A DNA stretch of 64,000 nt, from the NCBI GenBank assembly GCA_000739535.1, contig DF820467.1:1-64000 (forward strand), given 5' to 3'. The notes below the pieces were generated by a model. The model was not told the DNA's origin, did no database searches, and was given only the letters and a program-made list of their open reading frames with translations. A program made the position numbers and the translations under genes. The stretch's first letter is position 1, and each line of letters begins with the position of its first letter. The stretch comes from Candidatus Vecturithrix granuli (GTDB lineage Bacteria; Moduliflexota; Moduliflexia; Moduliflexales; Moduliflexaceae). This document shows positions 23,404 to 50,648 of the stretch, piece after piece.

Positions 23404-23464
23404 GTGTAACGCGAAACTGGAGTTTCGCGTTACACGGAGTTTGCAAACGGAGGTTTGCGCTCCG
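23404..23464. repeat. Stand-alone hairpin cargo pair
   Basis: A 32-nt perfect palindrome (23404-23435) centred on GCGAAACTGGAGTTTCGC is followed by a second one around GCAAACGGAGGTTTGC with GGAG/CTCC flanks (23436-23464). The first core is the same as the cargo of elements A1-A3. No ATGAAAAT ends are present. The rest of the 23173-23524 gap shows no gene. Confidence 0.75.
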
Positions 23465-28055: not shown

Positions 28056-28057
28056 TC

Positions 28058-28227
28058 GTACCGGCGAACAGCCGTGTTCGCCGAAACAGATATTTTCAGA
28101 GGAGTTGTCATGAGCGTAGGCTCACCCGACGCAATGAAAATCAGATGTACCGCGAAACTCCAGTTTCGCGGGCGAATGAATGGTGCGCGAAACTGAAGTT
28201 TCGCGCTACATTTTCAGGGGAGACTCT
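28058..28227 (+). repeat. Hairpin element A1 with leader ORF and Shine-Dalgarno
   Basis: A small hairpin (CGGCGAACA / TGTTCGCCG) is followed by ATTTTCAGAGGAG and a leader ORF (28110-28196, 28 codons). Inside lie ATGAAAAT (28134-28141), two GCGAAACT / AGTTTCGC palindromes and ATTTTCA (28210-28216). The last is immediately followed by GGGGAG, the ribosome site of the GrpB-domain gene. A frame from ATG 28180 runs in phase into that gene. See the related copies at 36.6 and 42.1 kb. Confidence 0.75.
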
Positions 28228-29232
28228 ATGATCGCGATCATCAATAGTTTCTTTTTTCCGATTGTTACAGAGGTCACAACCCGGCTGGCACAGCGATATG
28301 ATGCCGGAGGCGGACTTGACATGCACGCCCTCGCAGCTAAAATATGCGCTGAAGCACCGGAAAATGAGAAACCGGGGATTTTGTTCGATGAAGCCTGTCA
28401 ATTCGTGTTTTCCGAGAAAAAGCAAGGGATCGAGAACTTTGTCATCAGCTATACCTTTGACACGCCGAACAGACTCAAACTCCTGCGGGGATTGTTAAGT
28501 CGCTACGATAATGAAATTTATGCCTTTCGTTTATGTTTCAGTCCGATGGTGCTCACGGCGTTACTCTCCCCCTTCCCATCCGAAACAGGCCATGCCTATA
28601 ACCATTGGGATATGCAGCAAGAAGAAGGAGCCAACATTGGTGATATGGGATATGAGATTCCGGTAACGTCAGACGATCCTGAAACCATTGTGCAGGCGAT
28701 TTGGGATGATATTCATGAACCGGTTGAACTGAGTGACTATCAAAGCGAGTGGCCGGATATGTTTATGAATGAAAAAACCCGGATTTTGAATGCATTGCAT
28801 GGAATGCCGGGAGAACTCGAGCATATCGGTAGCACCGCAATTCCCAATATGATCGCCAAACCGGTGCTTGATATGCTACTGATCATTGAAGATTTACGCA
28901 AAGCACGCCAATACATCCGACCGCTGCGCGAACTTGGCTATGCGTTTATTGACTATCCGCAAAACACCACGCGCCTCTTTTTCCGCAAGGGCAAACCCCG
29001 CAGTCATCATATCCATATTGTTGAGAAGGAAAGCCCTGCTGCCCGGGATCATCTGCACTTTCGCAATGCTTTATTGAGCGATGCGCTGCTACGCGAGGAA
29101 TATCTACACTTAAAACAAGAGGCACTTCAAGAACATCAATTCTGCCGTGCCTTATACGGAGAGCGCAAAACCACCTTGATTCGCAAAGCCCTGGCACGGT
29201 ATCGCGCATACACCAAAAACCGGGTTTCTTGA
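28228..29232 (+). CDS. GrpB (UPF0157) protein with extra N-terminal domain
   Basis: About 334 residues. The C-terminal part (from about residue 158) is a GrpB/UPF0157 nucleotidyltransferase-like domain: LEHIGSTAIPNMIAKPVLDML, then HHIHIVEKESPAARDHLHFR. The N-terminal 150 residues (FPIVTEVTTRLAQRYDAGG onward) look unlike GrpB and show no P-loop; some GrpB proteins are fused to kinase-like domains such as CoaE. ATG 28228 follows GGGGAG supplied by the repeat. The last codons and stop are encoded inside the following terminator. Confidence 0.82.
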   Translation: MIAIINSFFFPIVTEVTTRLAQRYDAGGGLDMHALAAKICAEAPENEKPGILFDEACQFVFSEKKQGIENFVISYTFDTPNRLKLLRGLLSRYDNEIYAFRLCFSPMVLTALLSPFPSETGHAYNHWDMQQEEGANIGDMGYEIPVTSDDPETIVQAIWDDIHEPVELSDYQSEWPDMFMNEKTRILNALHGMPGELEHIGSTAIPNMIAKPVLDMLLIIEDLRKARQYIRPLRELGYAFIDYPQNTTRLFFRKGKPRSHHIHIVEKESPAARDHLHFRNALLSDALLREEYLHLKQEALQEHQFCRALYGERKTTLIRKALARYRAYTKNRVS

Positions 29233-29247
29233 AGAAACCCGGTTTTT
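29215..29247. terminator. Terminator overlapping the GrpB stop codon
   Basis: Arms AAAAACCGGGTTTC (29215-29228) and GAAACCCGGTTTTT (29234-29247). The TGA of the GrpB-domain gene (29230-29232) is in the loop, so the last five sense codons come from the repeat. It also serves the convergent E1 gene. Confidence 0.85.
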
Positions 29248-29256
29248 ATACAGAAT

Positions 29257-31713
29257 CTACACTCCTAAGCGATTCCGGCGCAGGATTTCGCCGTAGGTCT
29301 GAACTGTGCTCACCTGATGTCCCGTAAGTGGGTAAATGCGTTCGTGAATCGTATCAATGATCCATTCTTTTTGCGGGAAAAACTCTTCTTCCATCTCCGC
29401 TGCCGGGGTGATCCAGTTACGCGAGCCAACCACAGCCGGAGGACCGTCAAGATAGTTAAAGGCCAGTTGCGTCAGATTCGAGGCGACATTGTGCAAAAAG
29501 GAATTCCGTTCGCAGGCATCTGAAGCGAGCGCCACTTTCCCGGTTTTTTTGACCGATTCTACCAGCAAATCGTAATTCAACGGATTGATAAAACGCAAAT
29601 CGATCACTTCTGCACTCACGCCATATTTTTCCTGCAACTCATCTGCCGCTTCCATAGCCGGATATAGGGTAGCTCCAATAGTAATCAACGTAAGATTTTT
29701 CCCTGCGCGCCGGATCACCGGTTCGCCTTCGGGGGTTTCATAATAGCCTTCCGGCACGCCGGTTTTCTCGAACTGTTCGCCGATGCCGTAGAGTTTCTGA
29801 CTCTCAAAGAACACAACCGGGTCGCTGCCGTGCAGTGCCAGGTTCAACATGCCTTTGGCATCGTAAGGCGTGGCCGGGAACATCGCTTTTAAGCCCGGAA
29901 TATGGGCGACAATGCTGGTCCAATCCTGCGAGTGCTGGGCCCCGTATTTGCTGCCGACTGAGATGCGTAACACCAGCGGCATTTTGAGAATACCGGCTGA
30001 CATGGATTGCCATTTGGCGACCTGGTTAAAAAGTTCATCACCGGAACGCCCCATAAAATCGCAATACATCAGTTCCGGCACCACGCGGCCGCCGCATAAG
30101 GCATAGCCCACAGCAGACCCGACAATCGCCCCTTCGGAAATCGAGGTATTGAACAGGCGATGATAAGGCAGCGCTTCAGTCAAGCCGCGATATACCGCAA
30201 ATGCGCCGCCCCAATCGCGATTTTCTTCGCCATAGGCCGCCATCGTGGGATCTTCATAAAAACGGTGCAGCATGGCCTCAAATAACCCGTCGCGATAAGT
30301 GAATAATTGCGCGGAAGCGTAGGGTTTACCATTTTCATCATAAGCAAAGCGCTGCTTCTTTGCCAGAGCCTTTACTCTGGGATTTTCTTCTTTGGGGATC
30401 AGCACCTCTGGCTCACGGTCGTCAAATTTGTCGATTTTCTGATTGGAAAACATGACGGTTTCAATGAATTCACCGCTGACCCGTGGCGAAATTTCCAGCG
30501 AAACTGCTAATTTCGTCACCTCTATAACTGTTTCCACGACATGCTGCTCGATACGGGCAAGTTCAGCGTCACTGATGATTTTATGTTGTTTAAGATACTC
30601 GCCGTAACTTTTGACGCAATCTATGTCCTGCCACAGCGCCAGTTCTTCTTTGGTGCGGTAGGAGGAAGCGTCAGAGGGCGAGTGGCCGGAAAAGCGGTAA
30701 GTAATCGTATCCAGCAGCACCGGGCCGCGTCCTTCCAGCAGAATTTGTTTTTTGCGAGCCGTCGCTTCGGCTACAGCCAGTGGATTATAGCCGTCAACCC
30801 TTTCAGCGTGCATATTTTCCGGGTTCACGCCAGCCCCAATCCGCGCCAGGATTTTGAAACCCATGGTTTCTCCGACCGTTTGTCCGCCCATACCATAGAA
30901 ATTGTTAAAGAAATTGAACATCACCGGCGGTGCGCCGCCGATTTCTTTATCCCATAACGTTCGGTATTGATCCATGGCGGCCAGCATCATCCCTTCCCAG
31001 ACCGGGCCGCAGCCCATGGAGCCATCGCCGATATTGCCGATCACAATGCCGGACTTGCGATTGATGCGTTTATACAGGGCTGCTCCGACGCAAATGTCAC
31101 CGCTGCCGCCCACAATGGCATTATTCGGCATACTGCCAAAGGGTGGGAAAAAGGCGTGCATTGATCCGCCTAACCCCCTGTTAAATCCGGCTTTACGGGC
31201 AAAGATTTCGGCTAAGGTACCGTACAGCACATATTTCATCCCTAATTCCTTCACCGAGCCTTGATGTCCCTTTTCTACGACTTTCAGGCAATCGCCGTTC
31301 AGAAAGGTTTTCATGATCTCAAGTAAGGCATCCTCATCGAGTTTATGCACCGCAGAAAAGCACTTTGCCAGAATTTCCCCGTGACTCCGATGAGAACCAA
31401 AGATGAAATCATCGGTGTCTAACACCGCGCTCTGGCCGACAGACGCTGACTCCTGACCAATGGACAGATGCGCCGGGCCTTTATGATTATATTCGATCCC
31501 CTGATACGCGCCCTGAGTTTTAATCGTGTTCAGCATGGTCTCAAATTCCCGAATGAAGCGCATATCCAGATAAATCTGTTTTAGTCGCTCTTCTCCGAAG
31601 GTTTGAACTTCCTTCTTGATATCCGGTTGATATTGATTGACCGGAATATCATTGATTTTCAATATCTGCGGCTTGCGCATCTCCTTTGGATCAATTACAA
31701 TTGACTTTGGCAT
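29257..31713 (-). CDS. 2-oxoacid dehydrogenase E1, fused alpha and beta subunits
   Basis: 818 residues. The alpha part (about 30-420) carries the thiamine-diphosphate motif [10 protein letters not shown]...NN. A beta part follows (about 465-818) with [36 protein letters not shown] and the C-terminal transketolase-C region with [11 protein letters not shown]. In most bacteria alpha and beta are separate genes or a different homodimeric E1. The enzyme decarboxylates pyruvate, a branched-chain oxoacid or acetoin; the substrate cannot be told from sequence. No Shine-Dalgarno is seen. It is the last gene of the E2-E3-E1 operon. Confidence 0.9.
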
Positions 31714-31733
31714 AACAATGTTTTATGAGGTAT

Positions 31734-31867
31734 GCTCGAGAATAGAACACTGATGGGACTGATTGGACTGATCTCCACTGTTTTTCGGGAAGCGTGACGA
31801 GCTCCATGCCGTCGCTATATCAGTACGCATCAGCTCAATCAGTCCCATCAGTGTTCTATTCCCGAGC
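31734..31867. repeat. Long inverted repeat between E3 and E1
   Basis: Imperfect arms of about 39 nt at 31734-31772 and 31829-31867 share the core AACACTGATGGGACTGATTG. They enclose a 56-nt centre with its own short symmetries. It could form a large hairpin in the operon mRNA. It is not homologous to the other palindromes here. Confidence 0.75.
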
Positions 31868-31878
31868 CTATCTCATAT

Positions 31879-33210
31879 TTAAAGTTCCCACAGCGTATCT
31901 CTGATCACTTCAGATACCGTTGGGTGGGGGAAGATAATTTGTTGTATATCCTGAACGCGCAGTTCGGCTTCAATCATCGCTGCTGCGCCGTAAATCATTT
32001 CAGAACAGGCAGCCCCAAACAGGTGCACGCCTTTGAGCACATTCGTGTCGGCATCCACGACCACCTTACACATTCCCGGCGCGCGTTTGCCGTATTCAGC
32101 CAGAAAACGGCCATTTGCGCGCATCTGCATGGTTGCGGTTTTTACGGGAAATCCCTGTTTTTGAGCTTCTTGCTCGGTCAGACCGCATCCGGCGACTTCA
32201 GGTAGGGTATAAACCACCCAGGGGATGGCATGATAACGCATTCGATCCCGCTGACCACAGATCGTGTTGACCGCGACTTCGGCCATGCGTGAAGCTGAAT
32301 GCGCCAGCAGCGACTCGCCGTTCACATCGCCAATCGCATACACGCCGGGCAGATTGGTCTGCATCTGCTCATTGACCTTAATTCCCTGGCGGCGAATATC
32401 AAGCCTCAGGTGCTCCAATCCCTGCACATTCGGACGCCGACCGACAGACATCAAAATCAGATCCGCTTGCAGGGCCGTACTTTTCCCCTTCGAAGAAAAT
32501 GTCACTGTGTTGCCTTGAATCGCCTCAACTTTCGCGCCGAGATGATAGGAGACTTTATCAATGCTTTTCCTCAGTAAACGGGCGAATTCCATATCCATCA
32601 TCGGCACGATTTCATCCATCATTTCGATCACGTGTACCTCAACACCCACGCTGCTAAAAAATGAAGCAAATTCCATCCCGATATAGCCGCCGCCGACAAT
32701 GATGAGCGACTTCGGCAATTCTGTTATTTGCAAAATTTCACGGTTCGTGACAACCTGCGAACTGTCAACACCCGGAATTGGAGGGACGAGGGATGAAGAA
32801 CCGGTCGCAATAATCAGATTCTTTCCCTGATACGTATTGCCATTCACGCTTACAGTCTGGCGGTCGAGAAATTGCGCTTCTCCAGTCACAACTTCGACTT
32901 TATGCTTCTTCATCAGAAACGCAATGCCCTTACGCAGGGTTTCAATCACATCCTGCTTCCAGGTCATGGCTTCTGCCAGATCAAAACGCGCACAATCAAA
33001 ATGTACCCCGAACTTTGCTGCCTCCATACCGTGAACATATTGCTTGGCCGAATTTAGCAGCGATTTAGTAGGAATACAGCCTTCATTGGTACACACGCCG
33101 CCCAGATGCGCTTTTTCAATCAGCAGCACCGATTTTCCTCTGGCCCCGGCGCGTTCCGCGGCAATATATCCACCCGGCCCCGCGCCAACGATCATGACGT
33201 CATAGATCAT
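31879..33210 (-). CDS. lpdA: Dihydrolipoyl dehydrogenase (E3), operon copy
   Basis: 443 residues: GAGPGGYIAAERAGARG, redox CTNEGC, NAD site GGGYIGMEFASFF, GVYAIGDV and FPHPTVSE. Similar to the 25014-26360 enzyme but diverged through its length, so a duplicate of some age. It sits between E2 and E1 on the same strand and is therefore the E3 dedicated to this complex. No ribosome site is visible; its start lies next to a long palindrome. Confidence 0.95.
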   Translation of the reverse strand: MIYDVMIVGAGPGGYIAAERAGARGKSVLLIEKAHLGGVCTNEGCIPTKSLLNSAKQYVHGMEAAKFGVHFDCARFDLAEAMTWKQDVIETLRKGIAFLMKKHKVEVVTGEAQFLDRQTVSVNGNTYQGKNLIIATGSSSLVPPIPGVDSSQVVTNREILQITELPKSLIIVGGGYIGMEFASFFSSVGVEVHVIEMMDEIVPMMDMEFARLLRKSIDKVSYHLGAKVEAIQGNTVTFSSKGKSTALQADLILMSVGRRPNVQGLEHLRLDIRRQGIKVNEQMQTNLPGVYAIGDVNGESLLAHSASRMAEVAVNTICGQRDRMRYHAIPWVVYTLPEVAGCGLTEQEAQKQGFPVKTATMQMRANGRFLAEYGKRAPGMCKVVVDADTNVLKGVHLFGAACSEMIYGAAAMIEAELRVQDIQQIIFPHPTVSEVIRDTLWEL

Positions 33211-33216
33211 AATATT

Positions 33217-33289
33217 AACTACAGGAATGGTATATCAGCAGGAATATCTTTCTGAATTGAATTCTTGCTGATATACCATTCCTGTAGTT
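33217..33289. repeat. Long inverted repeat between E2 and E3
   Basis: Arms of 29 nt (33217-33245 and 33261-33289), nearly perfect, include CAGGAATGGTATATCAGCA. The right arm ends 5 bp before the E2 stop region and the left arm ends 6 bp before the E3 start, so a hairpin would fill the whole intercistronic gap. Confidence 0.8.
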
Positions 33290-33293
33290 CTCT

Positions 33294-34685
33294 TTACCCT
33301 GCTAACAGCAGATCAAAATTGGCTAACGCTGTCGAAAGTTCTTTTAAGAAACGAGCAGCCGGTGCGCCGTCAACTGCGCGATGATCAAAGGTCAGCGACA
33401 GGCCGATATGCGGGACAAAGCGCACGTCATCACCGTTCATGACCGGTTTGGGCTGAATGGCGCACACGCCTAAAATGCCAACTTCCGGCGGATTCAATAC
33501 AGGCGTAAAACTTTCAATCCCTAACGCGCCCAGATTTGTGACTGTAAAGGTCGCGCCAGTGAGTTCATCCGGCAGGATCTTGCCTTCCTGGCAGGCAGCC
33601 GTCAGACGTTTTGCCTCAACGGAAAGTTGTTTTAATGATAACAAATCTGCATTCTTGACCGGCGGCACCATCAATCCTCGCGGCGTATCCACTGCAATGC
33701 CGAGGTGCACCCGCTCGAATTCTTTGATCGTGTCTCCCAGAAAGTGCGCGTTCATAAATGGAAAACGGGGCAGCGTGTGCGCAACCACATAGAGCACAAG
33801 GTCGTTAATGGTGACGCCTTGCAGTCCGAAGCTTTCAGGCGCGGCTTTGAGGCGTTGGCGATAGGCTAACAATTGCGAGGCATCGGCCGACGCATTCATG
33901 GTTAGCTGTGCGGTGGTTTGCAGCGATTCTAACATACGCGCGGCAATAATTTTGCGCACCCCTTTGACCGGAATCTCTTTAACTGCGCCAAACTGGAGTG
34001 TCAAAGCTCGGCTTTGACTGCCGCTGGAGATCGCCGCTTTTCCCGGCATTTCTTGAGCAGGAACCGGCTGACGCAGATCTGCAGCAATCACTCTACCGCC
34101 AATGCCAGTGCCGGTTGCGGGCGCCTGTTTTCCCTGTTCGATTAAGGCGGTAATCGCGGCCGGCGTCAACGGTGCCTGATTTGTAATCGCAGCCAGTATG
34201 TCGCGTTCGATAATTCGACCTTCTGGTCCGGTTCCGGCAACGCCGGATGTATTCACACTTTTTGCGGCTGCAAGATTGCGTGCGCGGGGCGAAATACCTC
34301 TGCTTTCCGAAGATGAGCCTAATGATGGCGTCTGCGTGAACATCTGGGAAGGTTTCTGAGCCATCTCAGGAGTTTCCCGAATCTCTTTTTGCTGCTGTGC
34401 TGGTTGTGAAGTGTCCTTTGCAGGTAAGAATCCGTTGGTGTCCTCGCCGGGCTGTCCGACAATGGCTATCGGGGTCAATACAGGAACGTCAGTTCCTTCG
34501 GCAAAAAGTACTTTCAGTAACGTACCTTCTGCTTCGGATTCGACTTCAAAAGTCGCTTTATCGGTTTCGACTTCGCAGAGCACGTCTCCGACCTGAACGG
34601 ATTCGCCTTCTTGTTTGCGCCATTCCAGGATCAGGCACGATTCAACGGTGTTGCCCTGTCTGGGCATAAGGATTTCTGTTGCCAT
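33294..34685 (-). CDS. Dihydrolipoamide acyltransferase (E2)
   Basis: 463 residues. The lipoyl domain (about 1-78) has ETDKATFEVES, in which Lys carries lipoate. A linker and an E3/E1-binding domain follow (about 128-165, SPRARNLAAAKSV...GPEGRIIERDI). A second, diverged binding domain lies at about 172-205 (GKQAPATGTGIGGRVIAADL). The catalytic domain occupies about 230-463 with FDHRAVDGAPAARFL as active-site His motif. Two binding domains in one E2 is unusual. GGAGACGC precedes the ATG. First gene of the operon. Confidence 0.92.
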   Translation of the reverse strand: MATEILMPRQGNTVESCLILEWRKQEGESVQVGDVLCEVETDKATFEVESEAEGTLLKVLFAEGTDVPVLTPIAIVGQPGEDTNGFLPAKDTSQPAQQQKEIRETPEMAQKPSQMFTQTPSLGSSSESRGISPRARNLAAAKSVNTSGVAGTGPEGRIIERDILAAITNQAPLTPAAITALIEQGKQAPATGTGIGGRVIAADLRQPVPAQEMPGKAAISSGSQSRALTLQFGAVKEIPVKGVRKIIAARMLESLQTTAQLTMNASADASQLLAYRQRLKAAPESFGLQGVTINDLVLYVVAHTLPRFPFMNAHFLGDTIKEFERVHLGIAVDTPRGLMVPPVKNADLLSLKQLSVEAKRLTAACQEGKILPDELTGATFTVTNLGALGIESFTPVLNPPEVGILGVCAIQPKPVMNGDDVRFVPHIGLSLTFDHRAVDGAPAARFLKELSTALANFDLLLAG

Positions 34686-34707
34686 GTTTAGCGTCTCCTA
34701 CCTAATG

Positions 34708-34789
34708 AACCTACATGGATTTCATGTAGAGAGGGTTGAATAGTGATGTATCTTGAGTCTATCCTCCCTACATGAAATCCATGTAGGTT
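34708..34789. repeat. Perfect 22-bp inverted repeat upstream of E2
   Basis: Arms at 34708-34729 and 34768-34789 are exact complements, with a 38-nt centre that is also partly self-complementary (GAGAGGGTTGAATA / TATCCTCCC). It falls in the E2 5' leader, about 10 bases before the ribosome site, and could be a regulatory hairpin or an operator. The rest of the gap to 34976 is AT-rich with no gene. Confidence 0.75.
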
Positions 34790-34976
34790 TAAATTTGAGT
34801 ATCTTCTGGTAGCAAATTGTTATATCATGACAAATTTGGCAACTATTTTTTTAGAAAATTTATGAAAATTCTCATTTTTTTATTTACATTTTGGGTATAT
34901 ATTGTCAGAGTTGGTACAAAATATGAAAGATTGAGTTGCTTCGAGTATAACGCACGAACAATACAAAGGATATTTT

Positions 34977-35558
34977 ATGGCACGCAGACGAGTAGCAATT
35001 TTACTGTTTGATGATGTTGAAGTCTTAGATTTTGCCGGCCCCTTTGAGGTCTTTTCTGTAACTGATGAATTGAACGCCGGGGCAAAATTTCAGGTATATA
35101 CCGTAGCTGCAGTCAAAAAACCTGTGATCACTCGCAACGGCCTCTCCGTCAATCCGGACTATAACATTCATGATGCGCCGCTGCCGGATATTTTGATTGT
35201 TCCGGGCGGCGACGGAACCCGCCCGGTGCTCAAACGCGATCAGGTCATTGATTGGGTGAAAACCTGTGCGTCTCAGGCTGAACTGGTCTTATCCGTATGT
35301 TCCGGCGCATTAGTGTTGGCAAAAGCCGGATTACTGGAACATCTGCAAGCCACGACCCATCATCAGGTGTTCGAGACATTGGCAGCGCTTGCGCCCAACA
35401 CTGAAATTGTGAAAGAACAGCGTTTTGTTGACAATGGCAAAGTGGTTACATCGGCCGGGATCAGCGCAGGCATTGATATGAGTTTATACATCGTCGAACG
35501 CCTTGAAGGGCGCGAAGTTGCTGATAAAACGGTGGCGTATATGGAATACAGACGATAG
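34977..35558 (+). CDS. DJ-1/PfpI (class I GATase-like) protein
   Basis: 193 residues: RVAILLFDDVEVLDFAGPFEVF, LIVPGGDGTRP and LVLSVCSGALVLAKAGLL, with Cys in the nucleophile elbow, then TTHH. This matches the branch resembling the N-terminal domain of GATase-1-like AraC regulators, and isonitrile hydratases, but no DNA-binding domain follows. AAAGGATATTTT supports the start. Function in the cell is unknown. Confidence 0.88.
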   Translation: MARRRVAILLFDDVEVLDFAGPFEVFSVTDELNAGAKFQVYTVAAVKKPVITRNGLSVNPDYNIHDAPLPDILIVPGGDGTRPVLKRDQVIDWVKTCASQAELVLSVCSGALVLAKAGLLEHLQATTHHQVFETLAALAPNTEIVKEQRFVDNGKVVTSAGISAGIDMSLYIVERLEGREVADKTVAYMEYRR

Positions 35559-35563
35559 GAAAG

Positions 35564-35732
35564 CTTAAACCCCAACCCCCGCCCCAATGTTGTTGAACGA
35601 AGGAAATTGACAATTGACAATTGGTCATTTACAATTTGCAATTCAACGTTACAAACGGAAAAGAAGAGAATTGTGAATTGTGAATGATTAATTCTTAATT
35701 TAACAGCATTGGGGCCGGGGGTGAGGTCTTTC
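35564..35732. repeat. Long inverted repeat with AATTGACAATTG-type centre
   Basis: Outer arms near 35564-35594 and 35703-35732 share the complement of CCCCCGCCCCAATG. The centre contains tandem TTGACAA/AATTGTGAATTG motifs that are also complementary to each other. The right arm supplies the GGTGAGG that precedes the TTG start of the DeoR gene. Confidence 0.65.
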
Positions 35733-35735
35733 ACT

Positions 35736-36527
35736 TTGAAAGTTCACAGAATTCAACAAATCGAGGAATATATCAAATCACGAGGAGTCGCAAGTCTGGA
35801 TGAATTGTGCCGGCAGTTCGATGTGTCGAAAAACACGATCCGACGGGATGTTCAGGAATTAGAATCACGACAAATCGTCAAAAAAGTGTATGGCGGCGTG
35901 ATGATGAACGAGGAAAAATTACTCATCCCGTCAATTTCGCAACGTCAGGTGCGGATGCCTGGCGAGAAAGCCCTGATCGGTCAGAAAGCCGCGGAATTTG
36001 TCAACGATGGGGATGTAGTGATCATCGACTCCGGCACAACGACGGTACATATCATTGAGCACTTGCAACGCAAACAAAATATCACCGTGATCACTAACAG
36101 CATTCCAGCCCTGAATGCCGCAGCATTGTATCAACAATTACACGTAATTGTTACCGGCGGCGATCTGCTGCACTCAACCAATTCCCTGGTGGGACCGGAA
36201 GCGATTGCCATGCTGAAAAAGCTCAATGCCAACCGCCTGTTTCTGGCGGTTCCCGGAATCTCATTGACCAAAGGCATTACCACCCATTCACGCATAGAGG
36301 CCGAAATCAAAAAAATGATGATGGAGGTGAGTGAACAAATTATTCTCCTGGCAGATCATACCAAATTTGATGCTGTTTCACTCGTGACCTTTGCCGAGCT
36401 TCATGATATTGACATCGTGATTACAGATCAGTCTCCTCCTTTACCTTATAATCACTATTGCACTGAACACAACGTGAGTATTGTTGTAGCTGTTCCTGAA
36501 AATCAGACAACTTTTGTAGAATCTTAA
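35736..36527 (+). CDS. DeoR/GlpR-family transcriptional regulator
   Basis: About 263 residues. An N-terminal winged helix (RIQQIEEYIKSRGVASLDEL, then VSKNTIRRDVQELE) is followed by the DeoR sensor domain: IIDSGTTTVHI, ITNSIPAL, VTGGDLLHSTNSLVGP and LLADHTKFD. These regulators answer to phosphorylated sugars. A TTG start at 35736, eight bases after GGTGAGG, is preferred to TTG 35709, which would be inside the repeat. It ends 10 bp before the leader ORF of the next gene and probably forms one transcript with it. Confidence 0.88.
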   Translation: MKVHRIQQIEEYIKSRGVASLDELCRQFDVSKNTIRRDVQELESRQIVKKVYGGVMMNEEKLLIPSISQRQVRMPGEKALIGQKAAEFVNDGDVVIIDSGTTTVHIIEHLQRKQNITVITNSIPALNAAALYQQLHVIVTGGDLLHSTNSLVGPEAIAMLKKLNANRLFLAVPGISLTKGITTHSRIEAEIKKMMMEVSEQIILLADHTKFDAVSLVTFAELHDIDIVITDQSPPLPYNHYCTEHNVSIVVAVPENQTTFVES

Positions 36528-36530
36528 TGG

Positions 36531-36743
36531 AGTTGACATGAGCGCGACGCTCACCCGACGCCATGAAAATCAGGTTCGTAGTAGCCGCTTTAGCGGCGTG
36601 AAGAAACGCTCAAGCGTTTACTACGAACGGATATTTTCAAACGGTATGATGAAAATCAGATGTACCGCGAAACTCCAGTTTCGCGGCTGTCAACGAATGC
36701 GCGAAACTGGAGTTTCGCGCTACATTTTCAGAGGAGAAATCCC
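36531..36743 (+). repeat. Double hairpin element A2 with translated leader
   Basis: Two units lie in tandem. Unit 1 has ATGAAAAT (36563-36570), cargo B (36574-36628) and ATTTTCA (36633-36639). Unit 2 has ATGAAAAT (36649-36656), two GCGAAACT / AGTTTCGC palindromes and ATTTTCA (36724-36730). GGAG at its left edge serves the leader ORF; GAGGAG at its right edge serves the transporter gene. Confidence 0.8.
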
Positions 36744-36747
36744 ATGA
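36538..36747 (+). CDS. Repeat-encoded leader ORF coupled to transporter
   Basis: A 69-codon frame begins at ATG 36538, five bases after GGAG, reads through the whole of element A2 and stops in TGA 36745-36747, overlapping the ATG of the transporter by ATGA. The peptide is basic and made only of repeat sequence (for example KIRCTAKLQFRG). Its product is unlikely to matter; its translation could deliver ribosomes to the next gene and open the hairpins. Translation is inferred, not shown. Confidence 0.45.
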   Translation: MSATLTRRHENQVRSSRFSGVKKRSSVYYERIFSNGMMKIRCTAKLQFRGCQRMRETGVSRYIFRGEIP

Positions 36748-37361
36748 TGAGAAAAGCGATTATTGTGGTATCGGCTTATATAGCGGCTCAAATGCTGGCT
36801 GATATCACAAGTTTAAAAATCATTGTGTTGTTCGGCTTATCAATGGATGCGGGGACCTTTGTGTATCCGCTGACCTTCACATTACGTGATTTAGTTCATA
36901 AAACGCTGGGGATTACGGCCGCGCGGACGTTAATCATCACCGCCGCAGTCATCAATCTTGTGATGGCTGGAGTATTTTGGTTTGTCGCGAATTTGCCGGG
37001 AGATCCACAAGTTGGCGAGCAAATGGAGTTTGCCCTGGTCTTATCGCCGGTATGGCGTATTGTGATTGCCTCCATTCTTGCGGAAGTGATTGCAGAACTT
37101 ATTGACACTGAAGCTTACAGACTTTGGGTTGTGCGACACGGAGAGCGACACCAATGGGCAAGAGTGCTTGTGAGCAACAGCGTGAGCGTTCCCATTGATA
37201 GTATCCTCTTTTGCTGCATCGCCTTTTATGGCCAATTTCCTTTAACGGTGGTCATGAGTATTATTTTGAGCAACATCCTCATAAAAGGTGCAACCACCAT
37301 CATCAGTCTCCCCCTCATCTATACTGTACCGGAACGAACCGAAATGAACGCCAGAGATTGA
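36744..37361 (+). CDS. Queuosine precursor transporter (VUT/YhhQ family)
   Basis: About 205 residues with five or six membrane helices: AYIAAQMLADITSLKI, then TFVYPLTFTLRDLVHKTLG (family signature) and AELIDTEAYRLWV. The family imports preQ0/preQ1 or related precursors for tRNA queuosine. The start ATG (36744, or 36747) follows GAGGAG in element A2; the longer frame from 36660 is repeat sequence. No preQ1 riboswitch was recognised. Confidence 0.9.
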   Translation: MMRKAIIVVSAYIAAQMLADITSLKIIVLFGLSMDAGTFVYPLTFTLRDLVHKTLGITAARTLIITAAVINLVMAGVFWFVANLPGDPQVGEQMEFALVLSPVWRIVIASILAEVIAELIDTEAYRLWVVRHGERHQWARVLVSNSVSVPIDSILFCCIAFYGQFPLTVVMSIILSNILIKGATTIISLPLIYTVPERTEMNARD

Positions 37362-37458
37362 TGCGGATCGTTACGTCGGAACCCTGAACAACGCCATCGG
37401 AAATAATGCGTGTCGGAATCCGGGATAATTTTATCAAAATATTTTTCCTAAAAATCTC

Positions 37459-37487
37459 TTGACGATTCCGACGGCTTTTTCTATCTT
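37459..37487 (+). promoter_or_regulatory. Sigma70-type promoter for the MNT/HEPN pair
   Basis: TTGACG (37459-37464), a 17-base spacer and TATCTT (37482-37487), 45 bp before ATG 37532. Confidence 0.6.
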
Positions 37488-37531
37488 TTTATGAGTGAAA
37501 GTTGGCTGTGAAGAACAAGGAGCGTATCTCT

Positions 37532-37846
37532 ATGGATGTCAGAACGGTGATTGATGGCATGAATCGCAATTTAAAGCTTCGCTTCAGCGATTATCGCGGA
37601 GTGTATTTTTTCGGTTCGCGCCAGCGTGGAGATTTTCAGGAAGATAGCGATTATGATCTGGTTTTTGTCTTCGATGGCAAACCGGATTGGCGCAAAGAAG
37701 ATCAGATCCGGGACATTGTGTATCAACACGCCCTCGAATACGATGTCATCATTGACGGCAAATACTATGCCCAGGATGAGATCGAGCATTACCGGACTCC
37801 GTTTTGTGAGATCGTGTATAAAGAGGGGAAATTTTATGGCGTATGA
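37532..37846 (+). CDS. MNT-type minimal nucleotidyltransferase (MntA-like antitoxin)
   Basis: 104 residues. YFFGSRQRGDFQEDSDYDLVF holds the GSX10DXD signature of polymerase-beta-type nucleotidyltransferases. In HEPN/MNT modules such proteins AMPylate and silence the HEPN partner. ATG 37532 has AAGGAG nine bases upstream; TTG 37502 would overlap the promoter region and is rejected. It overlaps the HEPN gene by 11 bp. Confidence 0.88.
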   Translation: MDVRTVIDGMNRNLKLRFSDYRGVYFFGSRQRGDFQEDSDYDLVFVFDGKPDWRKEDQIRDIVYQHALEYDVIIDGKYYAQDEIEHYRTPFCEIVYKEGKFYGV

Positions 37847-38057
37847 CAAGCAAGCTTTGATCATGTATCGTATTCAACGTGCGAAAGAAACAGCGACAGA
37901 AGCCAGAGAAGCGTTTGAGCGGAGTCATCTTCAATTGGCCGAAAACCCTATCTATTACGGGATGTTTTATATAGTGCAAGCCCTTGCTCTGAAACAGAAC
38001 TTCACGACATCCAGACATACGCAACTTTTGGGGTGGCTTAATAAGAATTTTAGGTAG
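37836..38057 (+). pseudogene. HEPN-domain protein, 3' end cut by repeat C2
   Basis: The 73-residue frame has RAKETATEAREAFERSHLQ and NPIYYGMFYIVQALALKQNFTTSRH, the core of small HEPN partners of MNT enzymes. Normal partners are about 120-140 residues, and the segment after LLGWLNKNFR is missing. The stop TAG (38055-38057) belongs to the MITE-like element. No continuation was found after the element in any frame, so DNA was lost as well. GAGGGG and ATG 37836 are intact. Probably an inactive toxin. Confidence 0.72.
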
Positions 38058-38120
38058 TGGTTAAATGGTAACTGATGCCCGCTCGTTGAGCGAAGTCGAA
38101 ACGAGCCACCCGCAGTTCCC
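38054..38120. repeat. MITE-like element C2 (left half only)
   Basis: It matches element C1 from GTAGTGGTTAAATGGTAA through GCTCGTTGAGCGAAGTCGAA to GTTCCCT, then diverges; the right terminal repeat is missing. It interrupts the HEPN gene. Confidence 0.78.
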
Positions 38121-38178
38121 TACCAGCAAAAACTAAGCGGATTTCATTGCTCTGACAAAAAAGATTGACTTTCTATTC

Positions 38179-38212
38179 AGCATGTTGAAAATACAAATAT
38201 TTTCAACATGCT
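38179..38212. promoter_or_regulatory. 15-bp perfect palindrome upstream of SBP_bac_3 gene
   Basis: AGCATGTTGAAAATA (38179-38193), spacer CAAA, and the exact complement (38198-38212). A TTGACT lies just upstream at 38165-38170. No T-tract follows, so an operator or leader hairpin is more likely than a terminator. The rest of the 38121-38329 stretch shows no gene. Confidence 0.5.
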
Positions 38213-38329
38213 GCGACCGATCGTAAAATCTGTAACACTTAAAAAAACAAATTCGCTCTTTAGCATTGGGTTGTGAAAGAGGGGTGAATTTCTTAGCGAA
38301 CATTTCCTCAGCATAACTCATTACAGCTT

Positions 38330-39070
38330 ATGAAAAAATTAGTGTTGCTTCTCTGCTGTTGTCTGGCCCTCACTCAGATTCAAACTGCGGCTCAGGAAAC
38401 CAAGTTAGGGGCCTTTGTCTATCCCCCCTTTTATGTGGAACAAAATGGACAGATTGAGGGGATAGCAGTAGAAATTATCACAGAACTGTTTGAACGTTTA
38501 CACCTGAACTGGAACTTGACAATGTATCCGCTGAAACGTGCACTAAAATACATGGAAACGGGCAAACTTGATGCGATTATCATTCTGATTAAAAATCCTG
38601 AACGGGCTGAATACATAGATTTCACTGACCCTGTTATTACGGTACGGGGCCTTATCTGGTCTGCAGCCGATCGAGGGGCCATAGAATTTGCGCAATTGTC
38701 AGATTTATCCCGATATAAGTTGGGAGTCACCCTGGGATATAGCTACGGCCCGGAATTTGATCAATTAGTGCAGAGCTTCCCTCATGTGGATCCTGTGAAT
38801 TCAGATTTGTTAAATTTTACGAAACTCTTAAATAATCGGATTGAGGCCTTTCCCTGTAATGAAATTGTTGCGAAAAGCCTGTTCAAACAAAACCCGGAGT
38901 TACAGGGGAAATTTACTCATGCTCCCAATGCGTTTATCACCTGGGACTTGCGTATAGGCATCAGTAAAAAATCCCCACTGGTTGAGAAGATAGAAACTAT
39001 CAATAGTATCTTAACAGCATTGCACAAAGAAGAGGTGATCGAGCAGTTAGTAAAAAAATACATTGAGTAA
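38330..39070 (+). CDS. Periplasmic SBP_bac_3-type substrate-binding protein
   Basis: 246 residues: signal peptide of about 21 residues (ending TAAQ), then a two-lobe binding fold with YPPFYVEQNGQIEGIAVEIITELFERL, KLDAIIILIKNPERAEYIDFTDPV and the usual hinge pattern. This family binds amino acids or small polar solutes. No permease or ATPase is near, and it faces an MCP gene across a terminator, so a sensory role is possible. A related protein is at 49574. No clear ribosome site. Confidence 0.85.
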   Translation: MKKLVLLLCCCLALTQIQTAAQETKLGAFVYPPFYVEQNGQIEGIAVEIITELFERLHLNWNLTMYPLKRALKYMETGKLDAIIILIKNPERAEYIDFTDPVITVRGLIWSAADRGAIEFAQLSDLSRYKLGVTLGYSYGPEFDQLVQSFPHVDPVNSDLLNFTKLLNNRIEAFPCNEIVAKSLFKQNPELQGKFTHAPNAFITWDLRIGISKKSPLVEKIETINSILTALHKEEVIEQLVKKYIE

Positions 39071-39109
39071 TCACAGCATGCTTGTATAGTTAGAGCTCAT
39101 CAAAATGAT

Positions 39110-39141
39110 AAAAACCGGGTTTTTTGAAAAACCCGGTTTTT
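39110..39141. terminator. Bidirectional intrinsic terminator
   Basis: Arms AAAAACCGGGTTTTT (39110-39124) and AAAAACCCGGTTTTT (39127-39141), between the convergent SBP_bac_3 gene and the MCP gene. Confidence 0.9.
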
Positions 39142-39158
39142 ACCAATATCAACTATAC

Positions 39159-42053
39159 CTAATACCGTTCAAACTCTGAATCCTGCTCATCATCGCCAAT
39201 GGTGGATTTGGTTTTTAGTTCTGATTTCGCAGACGTTTTCTTTGCTTCTGTTCCCATTGATGTCTTCTTCTTCGGCCCTTCTGCTAAATTCTGGTGCGAT
39301 TCCGATGTTTGGGGACCTTCTTCGGCAATGGTAAAAAAGGCGATGGCCTGTTGGAGCTGTTGAGCCTGATTCACGAGTTGCTCGGCGGCTGAAGCGGTCT
39401 CCTCGGCGATCGTGGAGTTTTGCTGGGTCACACTGTCTAATTCTTGAATGGCGCGGTTAATTTGTTCTGCGCCACTATTCTGCTCATTACTGGCCGCACT
39501 GATCTCCAACACCAGTTCGGTAGTTTTACGAATACTGGGCAAAAGGGTGGCTAACATGGTTCCAGCTTTTTCCGAGATGTCAAGACTGGAGGTCGCTAAT
39601 CGGTTGATCTCTTCGGCCGCTTTTTTGGTCACCTCGGATAATTGCCGCACTTCTGAGGCAACTACCGAAAAGGCCTTGCCATGGTCCTGGGCCCGCGCCG
39701 CTTCAATGGTGGCATTCAGCGAAAGCAAGCGCGTCTGGTTGGCAATGTCTTCGATAACCGCAATTTTTTGCGCAATTTGCTGCATCGCTTTCACGGTTTC
39801 AGCCACCACCCGTCCCGCTTCTTCGGCATACTGCGCCGATTGCACGGCAATTTTTTCCGTTTGTCGGGCATTATCCGCATTCTGGCGAATATTCGCCGCC
39901 ATTTCTTCCATAGAACTGGAACTTTCCTGCATCGAAGCCGCCTGTAGCGAGGCCCCATTCGACAATTGTTGCGCGCCGGCACTCAATTCCTGACTAATGG
40001 AGACCATAGCATTGGCAGTATTTTTCACATTACTCACCACCGATTGCAATTGTTGACTCATTGTATTCAAGGCATGCATCAGATTATCCCGTGAGGATCG
40101 CTCCTGAACTTCCACCATCAGGTTCCCGGCGGCCATCGCTTCCGCCAGGTTGGTAATTTCGTGCATCGCCTCAATCAGGAGATTTAAATTATCCTTCATG
40201 ACATTAAAGTCGCCATGATACTCCGCCGTGATCGGTTCAGGCAGATCACCTTTAGCAATCTGATCTAAGTAGCCGGTCGCAACATTCAGAGGCGTCATAA
40301 AGGCATCAAGTACGCTATTGATCCCGCTGATGAGGGCGCGCCAGTCACCCGCAAAAAGTTCAGCGTTGCCCCGCGCGTCCAACCGACCATTTTGTACCGC
40401 CTGGATCAATCCCTGGGTCTCGGTTAACATCTGTTTCAGATTGTCGATCAGGAGTACCAGATTCTTTTTCAGCTTGTTGAAATCACCTCTGGCCTCCACG
40501 TTAATCTGCTCCGGAACATCGCCTCTGGCAATCTGCTCAATCGCTTCGGTGGCAATCGTAAAAGGAGTGATAAACGCATCAACCACCTGATTGAGACCTA
40601 ACACAAGTTCCCGCCACCCACCGCCGAACGCGGTCACATCGCCGCGTGTCTCAAGTTGTCCGTTTTGAATCGCCTGGCTCAGGATTTTCATCGTTTCTAA
40701 CACATTGCGGATATCAGCACCTAAGAGATTCAGGTTGTTTTTAATTTTATTGAAATCGCCATAGTAATCTTCTGTAATCTGTTCAGGGATTTCGCTTTTC
40801 GAAAGTCGCTCAATATAGGTTGCCGTTGTATTAATCGGAGTGACAAGGGCGTCAAGCAAATTGTTGATGCCCACGATGAGGTCGCGCCAATTACCTCTAT
40901 ATCCTTCCGGATGGCCACGCGTCGCTAACTTGCCATCCTGAATTTCCTGGCTCAGTCGATTCAGCTCATTCAATACCTGCGTGATCGTCGTTTGCATGGT
41001 CCGAAATGCGTTTGCCAACATCCCGATTTCGTCATGGCGCGTAATATGCAGCTCTTTACTGAAGTCGCCTTCTGCAACGGCATGTGCGGTCTCAGTAATA
41101 ATGAGATTAATAGGGGTCACAATTGATCGGGTAATCACATAGATCACAATGGCTGTGACGATCAAGCTCGAAAGGGCAAGAATCAGATTAATGTTTCGGA
41201 TCCGGATGGCCGGTGCAAATAGTTCGGTCGTATTGGCGGCCACCACTAAGATGGCCCCCAACTCATCGGAAGTTCGGTACACCGCGTGCTTTTCCGTCCC
41301 TTCCCACTGGTAAATAATCTGACCGGTTTTGTTAGTCAGCATTTCTTTACCAAACGCAAATTCCGCCAGATTTAAGGTCAAAATCCTGGTTTTATCAGGA
41401 TAGGCCAGCACGATTCCATCCATATTCAACAGATACGCGTAGCCTGTCTTCCCAACATGGATAGTATCAATAGTGTTTTCGGCAAAATACTCCAGGCGTA
41501 GAATGCCGAAAAATACCCCCATCACGTCGTTTCCGGTCTTGACCGGGGATGCAATGATAAAGACTGGCTGTTGGCTACCCTCGCTCTGACTTAACTTAGT
41601 GATGCAGGGTTTATCCGTCATGACCTCCTGAAAATACTGGGACCCTGCAATATTGTGGCCAATCATGTCCGGATGAGATGCAGCAATAATTTCGCCTTCA
41701 CTGTTCGCCAGGGCCAAAGCTTCGTAGAAATGATAATCTTCCTGAAAGGTGGTCATCTGAAGACTGGCGGCTTGCCGGGCGGACTTCCCGATATAGGTCG
41801 CCGGTATGGCATCCTGATAGATTTGCTGCGCGCTCCAATTGCGGATGTTGAGCCTGGCGCCGCCAATCCAGGAGCTTAACTCGCGAAAGGTCGCATCAGC
41901 GATCATCGTGATTTGGGCGATCATCGCCTCTTCCAACGCCTGCCTGGCTTGGGTGTACGCGATGAGAGTGGACACTCCCATGGCGATCACAAACAGAATA
42001 ATGGTGGGGACTAAGAATTTAGCCGTCAGACCAAATCGGACAGGCACTTTCAT
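39159..42053 (-). CDS. MCP with dCache sensor and about eight HAMP units
   Basis: 964 residues. Membrane helices at about 13-33 and 288-307 flank a double-Cache periplasmic domain. A canonical HAMP (about 308-360) is followed by about seven tandem HAMP-like units to residue 685, alternating [13 protein letters not shown]-type and [15 protein letters not shown]-type. The signalling domain (686-910) has the tip [20 protein letters not shown] disordered tail ends EFERY, fitting the CheR-tether pentapeptide pattern. It detects a small ligand or an SBP-ligand complex and signals to CheA, which is not in the window. The start is ATGA-coupled to a repeat leader. Confidence 0.93.
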
Positions 42054-42175
42054 AAATGGTTTCTCCTATGAAAATGTAGCGCGAAACTCCAGTTTCGCGC
42101 ACCAGTCATCCGCCCGCAAAACTGGAGTTTCGCGCTACATCTGATTTTCATTGCGTCGGGTGAGCCTACGCTCAT
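42050..42175 (-). CDS. Repeat-encoded leader ORF coupled to MCP
   Basis: A 41-codon frame starts at ATG 42175, five bases after GGAG, and ends in TGA 42052-42050, overlapping the MCP start as ATGA. It lies entirely in element A3. The N-terminal peptide [13 protein letters not shown] is the same as that of the leader at 28110. Translation is inferred from position and overlap only. Confidence 0.45.
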
Positions 42176-42186
42176 GACAACTCCTT
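42054..42186 (-). repeat. Hairpin element A3
   Basis: ATGAAAAT (42068-42075) and ATTTTCAT (42144-42151) enclose GCGAAACT / AGTTTCGC palindromes. On the minus strand it reads GGAG, leader ATG, hairpins, TAGGAG, then the MCP start. Close in sequence to A1. Confidence 0.8.
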
Positions 42187-42249
42187 TGATTAAAAAGAAA
42201 GGGATCAGAAAACTCGAAGGCTCCGATTCTGATCTCCTCGCTAGTTGTG

Positions 42250-46002: not shown

Positions 46003-47013
46003 TTATTTGCGGATAACATCTTTGCCTTCGTAATCGTTAAAAATCACATTCGCAAGCTTTAAGGCATCCAATGACAATGTAATACCCATGAAATCAGCAG
46101 TTTTGCGGTTTATAGCAACCAGCGTTTTGCGCGGATATTCGGCTTTGATCGACTGAATGGGTTCGCCTTTCAGAATGCGCGCCGCCATTTCAGCTAATTG
46201 CAGCGCGACATCATCGGTATCAACCGCAAAGGCGCATAACACTCCGGATTGGACTGTCGGTACCCAAAAGGTGACATAGGGTTTCTTGAGGCGTTCGCGC
46301 TGCCACTGAGCCACCTCTACATTTCGATCCGGAATAGTCCCATCGCGTTTGAGATAGGGCCAGGCTAAAACGACCAACCAGCCGACTTCGGGATCCTCAT
46401 TATACTTCAGCAACGCCGCTTGCCAGTCTTCATAGTGGGTCGTGTCTTCAATCGCTTTCAAGGGAACATCCAGGCGTTTGAGTGCATCCAAGACTTCCTC
46501 TTTTGGAAATATGACGCGTTGCTTATTTTCAAAAAAGACCGCCTGTTGTCCCGGTTTCAACGGCGCAATCGTGTGTAACAGCTTCAAACTATTATACACG
46601 GTATCTTTGTGTCCCGTATATACACCTGTGATGTTAGCGGTCGGAATACCGTCCGGACCAACATACGGGGCAGTGCCCCAATACGAAACGGTAGGTACGC
46701 CCAATTCATGCAATTTTGCTGTGACCCCGGTTTCACCGCTATACTCAATCACCACATCCGGCGCGAGCTGCGCCACCTGCTCTGGCCAGTCTGCCGGTCT
46801 TGGCGCCTCAAAAGAAACCAGTTTGAGGTTTGTGTTTTCTTGAAATCCCGCCTGCGCCAATCCAGCGAGCACGTGTTGTTTCATGGTTGTTTTGGCAGGC
46901 TCTGATGTGTATTCCACCAGCACCACAGTTTTCATCTCTGCTGTGAATCCAGCATTCGCCAGAAAACCCAAACAGCAAATCATTGCGATCATAATTCTCA
47001 TTAACCACCTCAT
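46003..47013 (-). CDS. PF04392-type ABC substrate-binding protein with YEGK tail
   Basis: About 336 residues from MRWLMRIM (GGAGG eight bases upstream; the longer frame to 47106 is rejected). Signal peptide ending GFTA, then the ABC_sub_bind fold: VVIEYSGETGVTAKL, HYEDWQAALLKYNEDPEVGW, LCAFAVDTDDVALQLAEMAARIL and INRKTADFMGI. It ends YEGKDVIRK. A hairpin (AACAGCAGG / CCTGCCGTT region, 47043-47072) lies upstream. Sits between two MCP genes. Confidence 0.9.
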   Translation of the reverse strand: MRWLMRIMIAMICCLGFLANAGFTAEMKTVVLVEYTSEPAKTTMKQHVLAGLAQAGFQENTNLKLVSFEAPRPADWPEQVAQLAPDVVIEYSGETGVTAKLHELGVPTVSYWGTAPYVGPDGIPTANITGVYTGHKDTVYNSLKLLHTIAPLKPGQQAVFFENKQRVIFPKEEVLDALKRLDVPLKAIEDTTHYEDWQAALLKYNEDPEVGWLVVLAWPYLKRDGTIPDRNVEVAQWQRERLKKPYVTFWVPTVQSGVLCAFAVDTDDVALQLAEMAARILKGEPIQSIKAEYPRKTLVAINRKTADFMGITLSLDALKLANVIFNDYEGKDVIRK

Positions 47014-47165
47014 AACACAATCCTCCGAGTCTGTAAAACCTGAACAGCAGGGAAAACCATTTCCTGCCGTTCGGTTTCGAGCCATAATGTAAATTTCATC
47101 AGACAACTTTTACATGATGTTTGTATAATCCCGTTTTTTGAATTAAGCAAGAATTTTTATAAAAA

Positions 47166-47200
47166 TTATTTTCGAATGACGTCTTTGCCTTCGTACCCAT
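47166..47200 (-). pseudogene. 3' remnant of an SBP gene
   Basis: Just past the MCP stop (47224), a different frame encodes DGYEGKDVIRK followed by TAA. This is the C-terminal tail of the SBP at 46003 (DYEGKDVIRK) with different third codon positions. Nothing SBP-like precedes it. It appears to be the leftover end of an SBP gene replaced or deleted by recombination with the MCP end. Confidence 0.65.
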
Positions 47201-47223
47201 CACTGGTCTGCGATGACACAACA

Positions 47224-49488: not shown

Positions 49489-49532
49489 GATCATAGCTCC
49501 TCAAAAACTTCTTTTTCCATGTTTCCATCGTC

Positions 49533-49559
49533 CCCGACAGGTTTGAATAACCTGTCGGG
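49533..49559. repeat. Hairpin of the CCTGACAGG family
   Basis: CCCGACAGGTT (49533-49543) and AACCTGTCGGG (49549-49559), perfect 11-nt arms. It lies between the SBP_bac_3 gene stop and the MCP ribosome site. Related to the hairpin at 5985-6013. Confidence 0.65.
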
Positions 49560-49573
49560 ATTGTGGGGAACAA

Positions 49574-50350
49574 TTATTTATTTTCAGGCACAGCGATGTC
49601 ATATTTCTTGAATATATTATCGCGTGTTCCTTCCGCTATGAGTTTCTTCAGTTCTTCATTAAACTGATCGCGTAATGCTTCTGCATTCGGCCATTTTTTG
49701 CTAAACCCCGCATAAAATTCTCGCACCGGACCAATAGATTTATCAATATAATCCACCCCATCAAGTTCGGGCGAATACATCTTGATAATTCGCGTGCATT
49801 GGGTTTTCGGACAGACCGCCAGGTCAATCCGATTATTAGTTAATTTGGTTAATTGTTGATAATCAACTGTCTCTGACGCCGGGATAGCATCGGTTTTATT
49901 GAATTTTTTCTGCTGTAGCGCCTCCATAAACGTACTGCCGTAATAATAGCCGTCAACATACCCGATCCGATAGTCTTTCACGTCTTCCAGCATGTTCCAG
50001 GTAATATTATCGGATTTTCGTTTAAAAAATACGACCTCGATGTAGATGATCCCGTCACTAAAAAAAAGCTCTTTTTCCCGTTCAGGATTCTTTGAAAAAG
50101 TGAAGAGCATAGCGGCTTTCCCGCTCGCAGCCGTCTCGTATGCCCGATTCAACGGCAGCAGTTTGACGTTAGGCTCAAAGTTCATTCGTTTCAACGCTTC
50201 GACAACAATTTCATAGCTCGCCCCGGTGACGTTGCCATCCTTATCCAGGTAATTGTAAGGAGCAAATTCCTGACACACCACAGGCAATTCTTCTGCCAAC
50301 ACCATCCAAGGGACAAACAACAATAAAATACATAACCCTATCTTTTTCAT
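49574..50350 (-). CDS. SBP_bac_3-type periplasmic binding protein
   Basis: 258 residues with a clear signal peptide (MKKIGLCILLLFVPWMVLA). CQEFAPYNYLDKDGNVTGASYEI, LLPLNRAYETAASGKA, FTFSKNPEREKELFFSD and YRIGYVDGYYYG match the amino-acid-type SBP family. Its nearest relative here is the 38330 protein. It is directly upstream of the MCP 47224-49488, again with no transporter subunits. GGAGATG precedes the ATG. Confidence 0.88.
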   Translation of the reverse strand: MKKIGLCILLLFVPWMVLAEELPVVCQEFAPYNYLDKDGNVTGASYEIVVEALKRMNFEPNVKLLPLNRAYETAASGKAAMLFTFSKNPEREKELFFSDGIIYIEVVFFKRKSDNITWNMLEDVKDYRIGYVDGYYYGSTFMEALQQKKFNKTDAIPASETVDYQQLTKLTNNRIDLAVCPKTQCTRIIKMYSPELDGVDYIDKSIGPVREFYAGFSKKWPNAEALRDQFNEELKKLIAEGTRDNIFKKYDIAVPENK

Positions 50351-50619: not shown

Positions 50620-50648
50620 TTTACCATGTAAACTACGAACCATGTCAA
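50620..50648 (-). promoter_or_regulatory. C-tract TTGACAT promoter-like box, copy 1
   Basis: CCCCCC-TTGACAT on the minus strand, with TTGACA at 50648-50643; the -10 is weak. It could serve the SBP_bac_3 gene about 290 bp downstream. The 50351-50719 gap otherwise shows no gene. Confidence 0.4.

Follow-up and report, generated by a model that had tools for sequence, protein, structure and literature searches.

This work concerns a family of hairpin-forming, probably mobile repeats in the genome of Candidatus Vecturithrix granuli, studied from a window of 64,000 nucleotides (bases 1-64000 of contig 17, DF820467.1). Its members are mosaic palindromes that carry REPINs, i.e. paired repetitive extragenic palindromic (REP) sequences forming a hairpin. 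We consider it probable, at roughly 60 %, that insertion or retention has placed them immediately before Shine-Dalgarno (SD) sites and that the junction preserves the SD or restores it. Their flush ends at ribosome sites suggest DNA parasites that settle immediately ahead of genes and leave them intact. The usual view of REP-type repeats is that they stand at gene ends and act on mRNA decay or termination. A family that is fixed at ribosome sites and has RGGAG at the junction would show a different route by which a selfish repeat can spread in a gene-dense genome while leaving its genes unbroken, and strong hairpins would stand directly before the SD of at least about 100 unrelated genes. The family also offers a clear test of target choice versus selection as the source of a repeat distribution.

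The genome comprises 8.38 Mb in 21 contigs, and its record gives an estimated contamination of about 11 % and has gaps at many arrays. A contiguous sample of 1.66 Mb, which includes the window, was fetched together with the neighbourhoods of most other copies of the A hairpin described below. Genes were called with a simple home-made hexamer-based caller that favours starts having an SD.

Placement at gene starts

Two palindromes alternate in the arrays, an A hairpin with AGGAG-N5-ATG and a TGAAA...TTTCA palindrome with variable cargo, of which the REP dimer B is the commonest. At the end of an array, a single base separates TTTCA from the RGGAG that follows; in most cases the strand is the sense strand and the site the SD of the next gene. 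Among 74 termini in the 1.66 Mb sample, 39 form the SD of a called gene whose ATG follows 3-10 nt on (mostly 6-9), about 20 run into another module, and neither gene nor module follows the remaining ones. The downstream gene is in sense orientation in 49/55 arrays and in antisense in 6/55; 40/55 arrays lie between co-directional genes and 3/55 in convergent gaps. The intergenic gaps are often barely longer than the element. A clear example is a B-type unit that has the stop codon of a small gene on one side and the SD of the encapsulin gene on the other.

Compared with five other repeat families in the same DNA, which rarely end at SDs, the placement is distinct: 36/57 loci lie within 20 nt of a start codon versus 23/320 intergenic loci of the other families (Fisher p=3e-20), a count that rests on termini chosen by their SD. 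Because of this selection, the test was repeated with the REP units alone and the flanks ignored, and 29/53 versus 50/320 were found within 40 nt of a start (p=4e-9). The loose A-hairpin pattern was excluded from this second test, as it picks up random matches within genes, and the gene-adjacent part is not A. The SDs that are used are preferred over other intergenic NRGGAG sites with an odds ratio of 6.5, a value that uses 13 termini without gene or module counted by eye. The original prediction had held that copies sit directly before start codons with the right-hand AGGAG in SD position, and the counts bear out both statements.

The genes downstream of the arrays in the window are a GrpB-domain gene, a Vut_1 transporter and a chemotaxis receptor. 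Of a further twenty proteins encoded downstream, the ones that gave a match have diverse functions and include encapsulin, GH4, HSP70, aldo/keto reductases, the isocitrate/isopropylmalate dehydrogenase family and dehydroquinase. For this reason, no regulon is apparent among the genes downstream of the arrays.

Architecture of the arrays

A fixed frame with exchangeable cargo is seen across 94 listed A units. The left frame is TTTNYA-N-RGGAG-TTNNC-ATGAGC-nnnn-GCTCACCCG-nnnnn-ATGAAA and the right frame TTTCA-N-RGGAG; the outer frame of the A hairpin can be written as TTTTCA-NRGGAG-TTGTC-ATGAGC....GCTCACCCGACGCA-ATGAAAA. The TTTNYA arm is taken as part of the element, since it is still the consensus at the leftmost A copies but is present at only 8/380 native SDs in the genome. 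In arrays of at least two units, one RGGAG is common to each junction. Module C can replace A and has CATTCG instead of CATG in most of the C copies seen.

Cargo B is a GTAG-type REP dimer, GTAGCGCGAAACTCCAGTTTCGCG...CGCGAAACTGGAGTTTCGCGCTAC, in which the GTAG tag stands beside an imperfect palindrome (GTAGCGCGAAACTCCAGTTTCGCG and its mirror); some copies have GTAC. The 1.66 Mb sample contains 51 B dimers and 16 singles, and 4/57 clusters lie inside called genes. Other cargo found between TGAAA and TTTCA comprises the variant CGCGAAATTCCTTTTCGCG, the GTAGTAGCCGCTTCAGCGGCG dimer (E), CGTACCCCGGACA (F) and the hairpin ACTACAAGGAT...ATCCTTGTAGT (D). At C18:401561 and C18:401692, a D palindrome lies between oppositely oriented A hairpins, which makes the module readable on both strands.

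The left motif GTCATGAGCnnnnGCTCACCCGnnGCnATGAAAATC has 68 copies genome-wide with at most 3 mismatches versus 0 in the reversed-pattern control, the terminus ATTTTCANRGGAG 221 exact copies versus 4 in the reversed control, and the B-type REP arms about 782 versus 1. The A module was absent from all 39 other genomes searched (39/39); among the relatives searched, a single genome of the same family turned up, from another genus. In GTDB genome contigs, a scan found nothing beyond isolated matches scattered over unrelated species, and a search for the terminus in a viral collection gave no match. As far as these data go, the family therefore appears to be private to the Candidatus Vecturithrix granuli lineage.

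Copies inside the window

Four elements are located in the window, at 28093-28222 (+), 36526-36736 (+), 42063-42192 (-) and, at the left edge, 57-163 (-). They have in common GGAG, CATGAGC....GCTCACCCG, ATGAAAAT and ATTTTCANRGGAG. The original prediction had placed repeats with common motifs at 28058, 36531, 42054 and the left edge, and they were found there, with the copy numbers given above well apart from the controls (68 versus 0 and 221 versus 4). Its statement that the right-hand AGGAG is the ribosome site of the next gene in each of them holds for the genes starting at 28228, 36744/36747 and 42053, but not for the left-edge copy.

The array at 28058 opens with a hairpin fragment, CGTACCGGCGAACAGCCGTGTTCGCC, read directly as a G-type cargo and the first cargo of this array (28056-28091, +). 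It is followed by an A hairpin at 28093-28140 (+), recognised by its motif and its RNA fold, which runs from TTTTCAGAGGAG through an ATG in the 28109 region to TGAAAA and carries an SD-like GAGGAG and the leader ATG. The B cargo, a GTAG-type REP dimer (REPIN), lies at 28145-28211 (+), and the terminus ATTTTCAGGGGAG at 28210-28222 (+) puts GGGGAG in SD position for the GrpB-domain gene starting at 28228.

In the second array, the A hairpin (36526-36573, +; leader ATG 36538-36540) stands directly after the stop codon of a DeoR-type regulator (36525-36527). Two cargoes follow, an E cargo consisting of a GTAGTAGCCGCTTTAGCGGCG dimer that ends in ATATTTTCA (36574-36638, +) and a B cargo with a REP dimer (36660-36725, +), before the terminus ATTTTCAGAGGAG (36724-36736, +) provides the SD of the Vut_1 gene at 36744/36747. 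The third array, on the reverse strand, has its A hairpin at 42143-42192 (-; leader ATG 42175-42173), the B cargo with a REP dimer at 42074-42140 (-) and the terminus ATTTTCATAGGAG at 42063-42075 (-), which is the SD of the chemotaxis-receptor gene starting at 42053. The left-edge copy (57-163, -) consists of an A hairpin at about 114-163, an F cargo (CGTACCCCGGACA hairpin) at about 70-113 and the terminus ATTTTCATAGGAG at 57-69; it runs into a C module at 1-56 that is cut by the contig end, and no gene is reached.

Some further features were noticed. A lone REP palindrome (TAACGCGAAACTGGAGTTTCGCGTTA) at 23407-23436 of the window has no TTTCA or RGGAG terminus, is not at a gene start and precedes another small inverted repeat (GTTTGCAAACGGAGGTTTGCGCTCC). 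On the reverse strand at 46003-58886 there are about eight similar genes of 310-365 aa, two of which were tested and match ABC_sub_bind; chemotaxis-receptor genes are interspersed among them, and these have long repeats in common with the gene at 39159-42053. Elsewhere in the genome, C14:43549-60860 holds a very long array of clustered regularly interspaced short palindromic repeats (CRISPR) with 234 copies of a repeat containing GTTTCAAACCCTTCCAGGGATTATTC.

Leader frames

The original prediction described a leader open reading frame (ORF) that starts at the ATG of the A hairpin, is kept open by selection and ends in an ATGA overlap with the gene start. Two such leaders are indeed seen in the window, with the TGA at 36745-36747 (+) and 42052-42050 (-), and the leader in the 28058 copy is closed after 28 codons. 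Genome-wide, selection on the frame was not borne out: 31/100 listed A modules have TGA or TAA as the third leader codon. Scoring was done on the 68 units with a downstream gene found and no gap, which contain the 42063 array, while the 36526 array falls outside the pattern because of a five-base loop. In 52/68 units the leader stops before the gene, 23 times inside A and 29 times in the cargo or before the gene. The remaining 16/68 leaders reach the gene, 7 out of frame, 5 as in-frame extensions, 3 with ATGA and 1 with another overlap. ATGA ends, which had been expected above chance, occur in only 3/68 scored units, one of them the 42063 array, in addition to the 36526 array, and the genes are spread evenly over the three frames counted from the leader ATG (23/25/20, p=0.76). 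Closed leaders, one of the two outcomes that the original prediction had named as speaking against it, are what was found, while the other, most copies lying far from start codons, was not.

The B cargo is free of stops in the leader frame in 31/48 units and in a second frame in 24/48. With few stops in two of the three frames of this cargo, sequence composition together with chance accounts for the open frames seen in the window. A selected leader peptide as a family-wide property is rejected, across all copies fetched, on the basis of the closed leaders, the random frame and the stop-poor cargo; single loci could still be coupled.

Probable mobility and REP-associated transposases

REPINs are mobilised by tyrosine (HUH) transposases of the REP-associated kind. 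Of the 12 Y1_Tnp matches in the genome, two are genes for such REP-associated transposases, each flanked by its own REPINs. The first, at C18:825695-826096, reaches 94.5 bits to REP_Tyr_transpos (cut-off 80) and is surrounded by GGAGTGCGAAAGCTCTGCTTTCGC repeats; these constitute an abundant second REPIN family of the genome that is not start-proximal. The second, at C13:26406-26744, reaches 73.6 bits to REP_Tyr_transpos, below the cut-off of 80, and has GTACCGCGAACCTCCCGGTTCGCG repeats around it, which are sisters of B (about 4/20 bases differ) and confined to this locus. At the same locus, REPINs directly follow stop codons and reach to the start of the next gene, and one of them continues into GTACATGGAGaattATG.

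No target-site duplication was detected, as the left and right boundary 12-mers of one unit resemble each other no more closely than those taken from different units. The result disfavours a plain DDE-type miniature inverted-repeat transposable element (MITE) and fits HUH transposition without being proof of it. A MITE-like element of a different kind, with GGTAGTGGTTAAAT-type ends and a GAGCGAAGTCGA palindrome inside, lies at 5740-5855 of the window; its copy at C14:182815 contains a different REPIN and shows a probable target duplication of 8 bases, AACAAATC.

Interpretation and alternative explanations

According to our preferred reading, an A hairpin followed by a TGAAA...TTTCA palindrome with interchangeable cargo would behave like mobile DNA, and its insertion, or its survival after insertion, would be focused on SD sites. 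At the junction RGGAG would remain intact, as a rule 6-9 nt ahead of the ATG, so the gene would stay translatable. The SD-ATG inside the A hairpin would be a further occurrence of this boundary, at junctions within the array. Translation of short peptides may begin at the A-hairpin ATG, and a conserved leader or stop/start coupling would not be required.

Several observations weigh against this reading. The base N before RGGAG at gene ends fits poorly with native SDs and with internal junctions alike. Among the Y1_Tnp and REP_Tyr_transpos matches, none is a transposase flanked by B itself. A search for empty sites with joined flanks in the sampled DNA returned self and array matches only, and a search in relatives at the HSP70-domain and encapsulin genes returned only distant matches in the nearest genomes. 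The mobility of the frame is what we infer from the sequences, no empty site or recent insertion having been found.

It is conceivable, and put forward here tentatively, that the insertion machinery recognises SD sequences (RGGAG) as its target and leaves a correctly spaced SD at the right end, in which case each insertion would be silent for the gene and would supply a new target for array growth.

A functional role as 5'-untranslated region (5'-UTR) elements is unlikely. Here, a hairpin abutting the SD would regulate or insulate translation, and copies would be kept by selection at gene starts; variants are a standby site, protection of the mRNA, or a switch whose middle TGAAAAT can pair with the TTTTCA on either side. 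The strong sense-strand, start-proximal bias of the arrays is in line with it. So are the predicted RNA folds, which are very stable (z about -6 to -8), but such stability is expected of any long palindrome. In these predictions the A part folds alone, the outer TTTTCA pairing with TGAAAA and the SD-like RGGAG lying in an internal loop, and the last RGGAG of the array is unpaired in the folds shown. Covariation, scored in the helices of A only, amounts to one compensatory copy in 101, and an A-C mismatch occurs within the A stem in 14/101 copies. Furthermore, the downstream genes have no common function, and an Rfam search of the repeats gave no match.

Indiscriminate insertion followed by purifying selection, in which there would be no target preference and only insertions leaving the downstream SD intact would survive, has a low probability and competes directly with our preferred reading. 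It accords with intergenic gaps that are often little longer than the element, and with the finding of NRGGAG at internal junctions too, at which no gene starts. However, neutral sites such as gene ends and positions far upstream should then be the commonest, and these are occupied by other repeat families of the genome, while only 3/55 arrays of this family lie in convergent gaps and 6/55 face an antisense gene.

The mobile translation-coupling leader of the original prediction is highly improbable: two window arrays fit it, as do 3/68 scored units genome-wide (one of these being the 42063 array), against leaders that stop at codon 3 or before the gene, a uniform gene frame, cargo that is stop-poor in two frames and a module C without ATG.

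Comparison with known systems

With IS200/IS605-type HUH transposition (PMC6006769), the arrays described here appear to share subterminal hairpins, the lack of a target-site duplication and a short sequence common to the left boundary and the right end. With GTAG REPs, REPINs and bacterial interspersed mosaic elements (BIMEs), the likeness is one of composition, as B is a head-to-head dimer of a GTAG-tagged imperfect palindrome, occurs in high copy number, is mostly intergenic and is found in mosaic arrays as in BIMEs, in a genome that has REP-associated transposases. Published REPs are mostly located downstream of coding regions, near gene ends, convergent gaps included (PMC3733652, PMC3116915, PMC2817692), and in E. 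coli, translation can be lowered by REPs that lie within 15 nt of a stop codon (PMC12306157). In contrast, B stands at gene starts flush with the SD and is rarely convergent (3/55 arrays), is embedded in a second palindromic frame, and no B-flanked transposase was found. In Anabaena variabilis, GTAG-15 dimers sit inside a larger palindrome whose core is likewise TGAAA--TTTCA, but neither an A hairpin nor a link to start codons is described there (PMC3733652).

Repeats at gene starts have precedents as well. The TAACTGA repeats of Beggiatoaceae occur in large numbers a few nt upstream of the start codons of unrelated genes (PMC4679880), but they are short direct heptamers in a setting where canonical ribosome sites are rare, whereas the Vecturithrix palindromes end at a canonical SD. 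Mycobacterial interspersed repetitive units (MIRUs) are described in PMC12548453 (citing Supply et al. 1997) as apparently mobile repeats that use start codons as insertion sites and have an ORF coupled at -4 nt, which probably keeps the harm small. On this account, the statement in the original prediction that REP/MITE elements are not usually known to donate translation signals in this way was too strong. The MIRUs resemble the Vecturithrix elements in being apparently mobile repeats at gene starts that probably spare gene expression; they differ in their coupled ORF, the Vecturithrix leaders being usually closed and out of frame, and in their position at the start codon, where the Vecturithrix elements abut the SD. 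Repeats that insert at start codons are known from the MIRU precedent; what differs here is a mosaic of REPINs flush with the SD and free of a coupled ORF.

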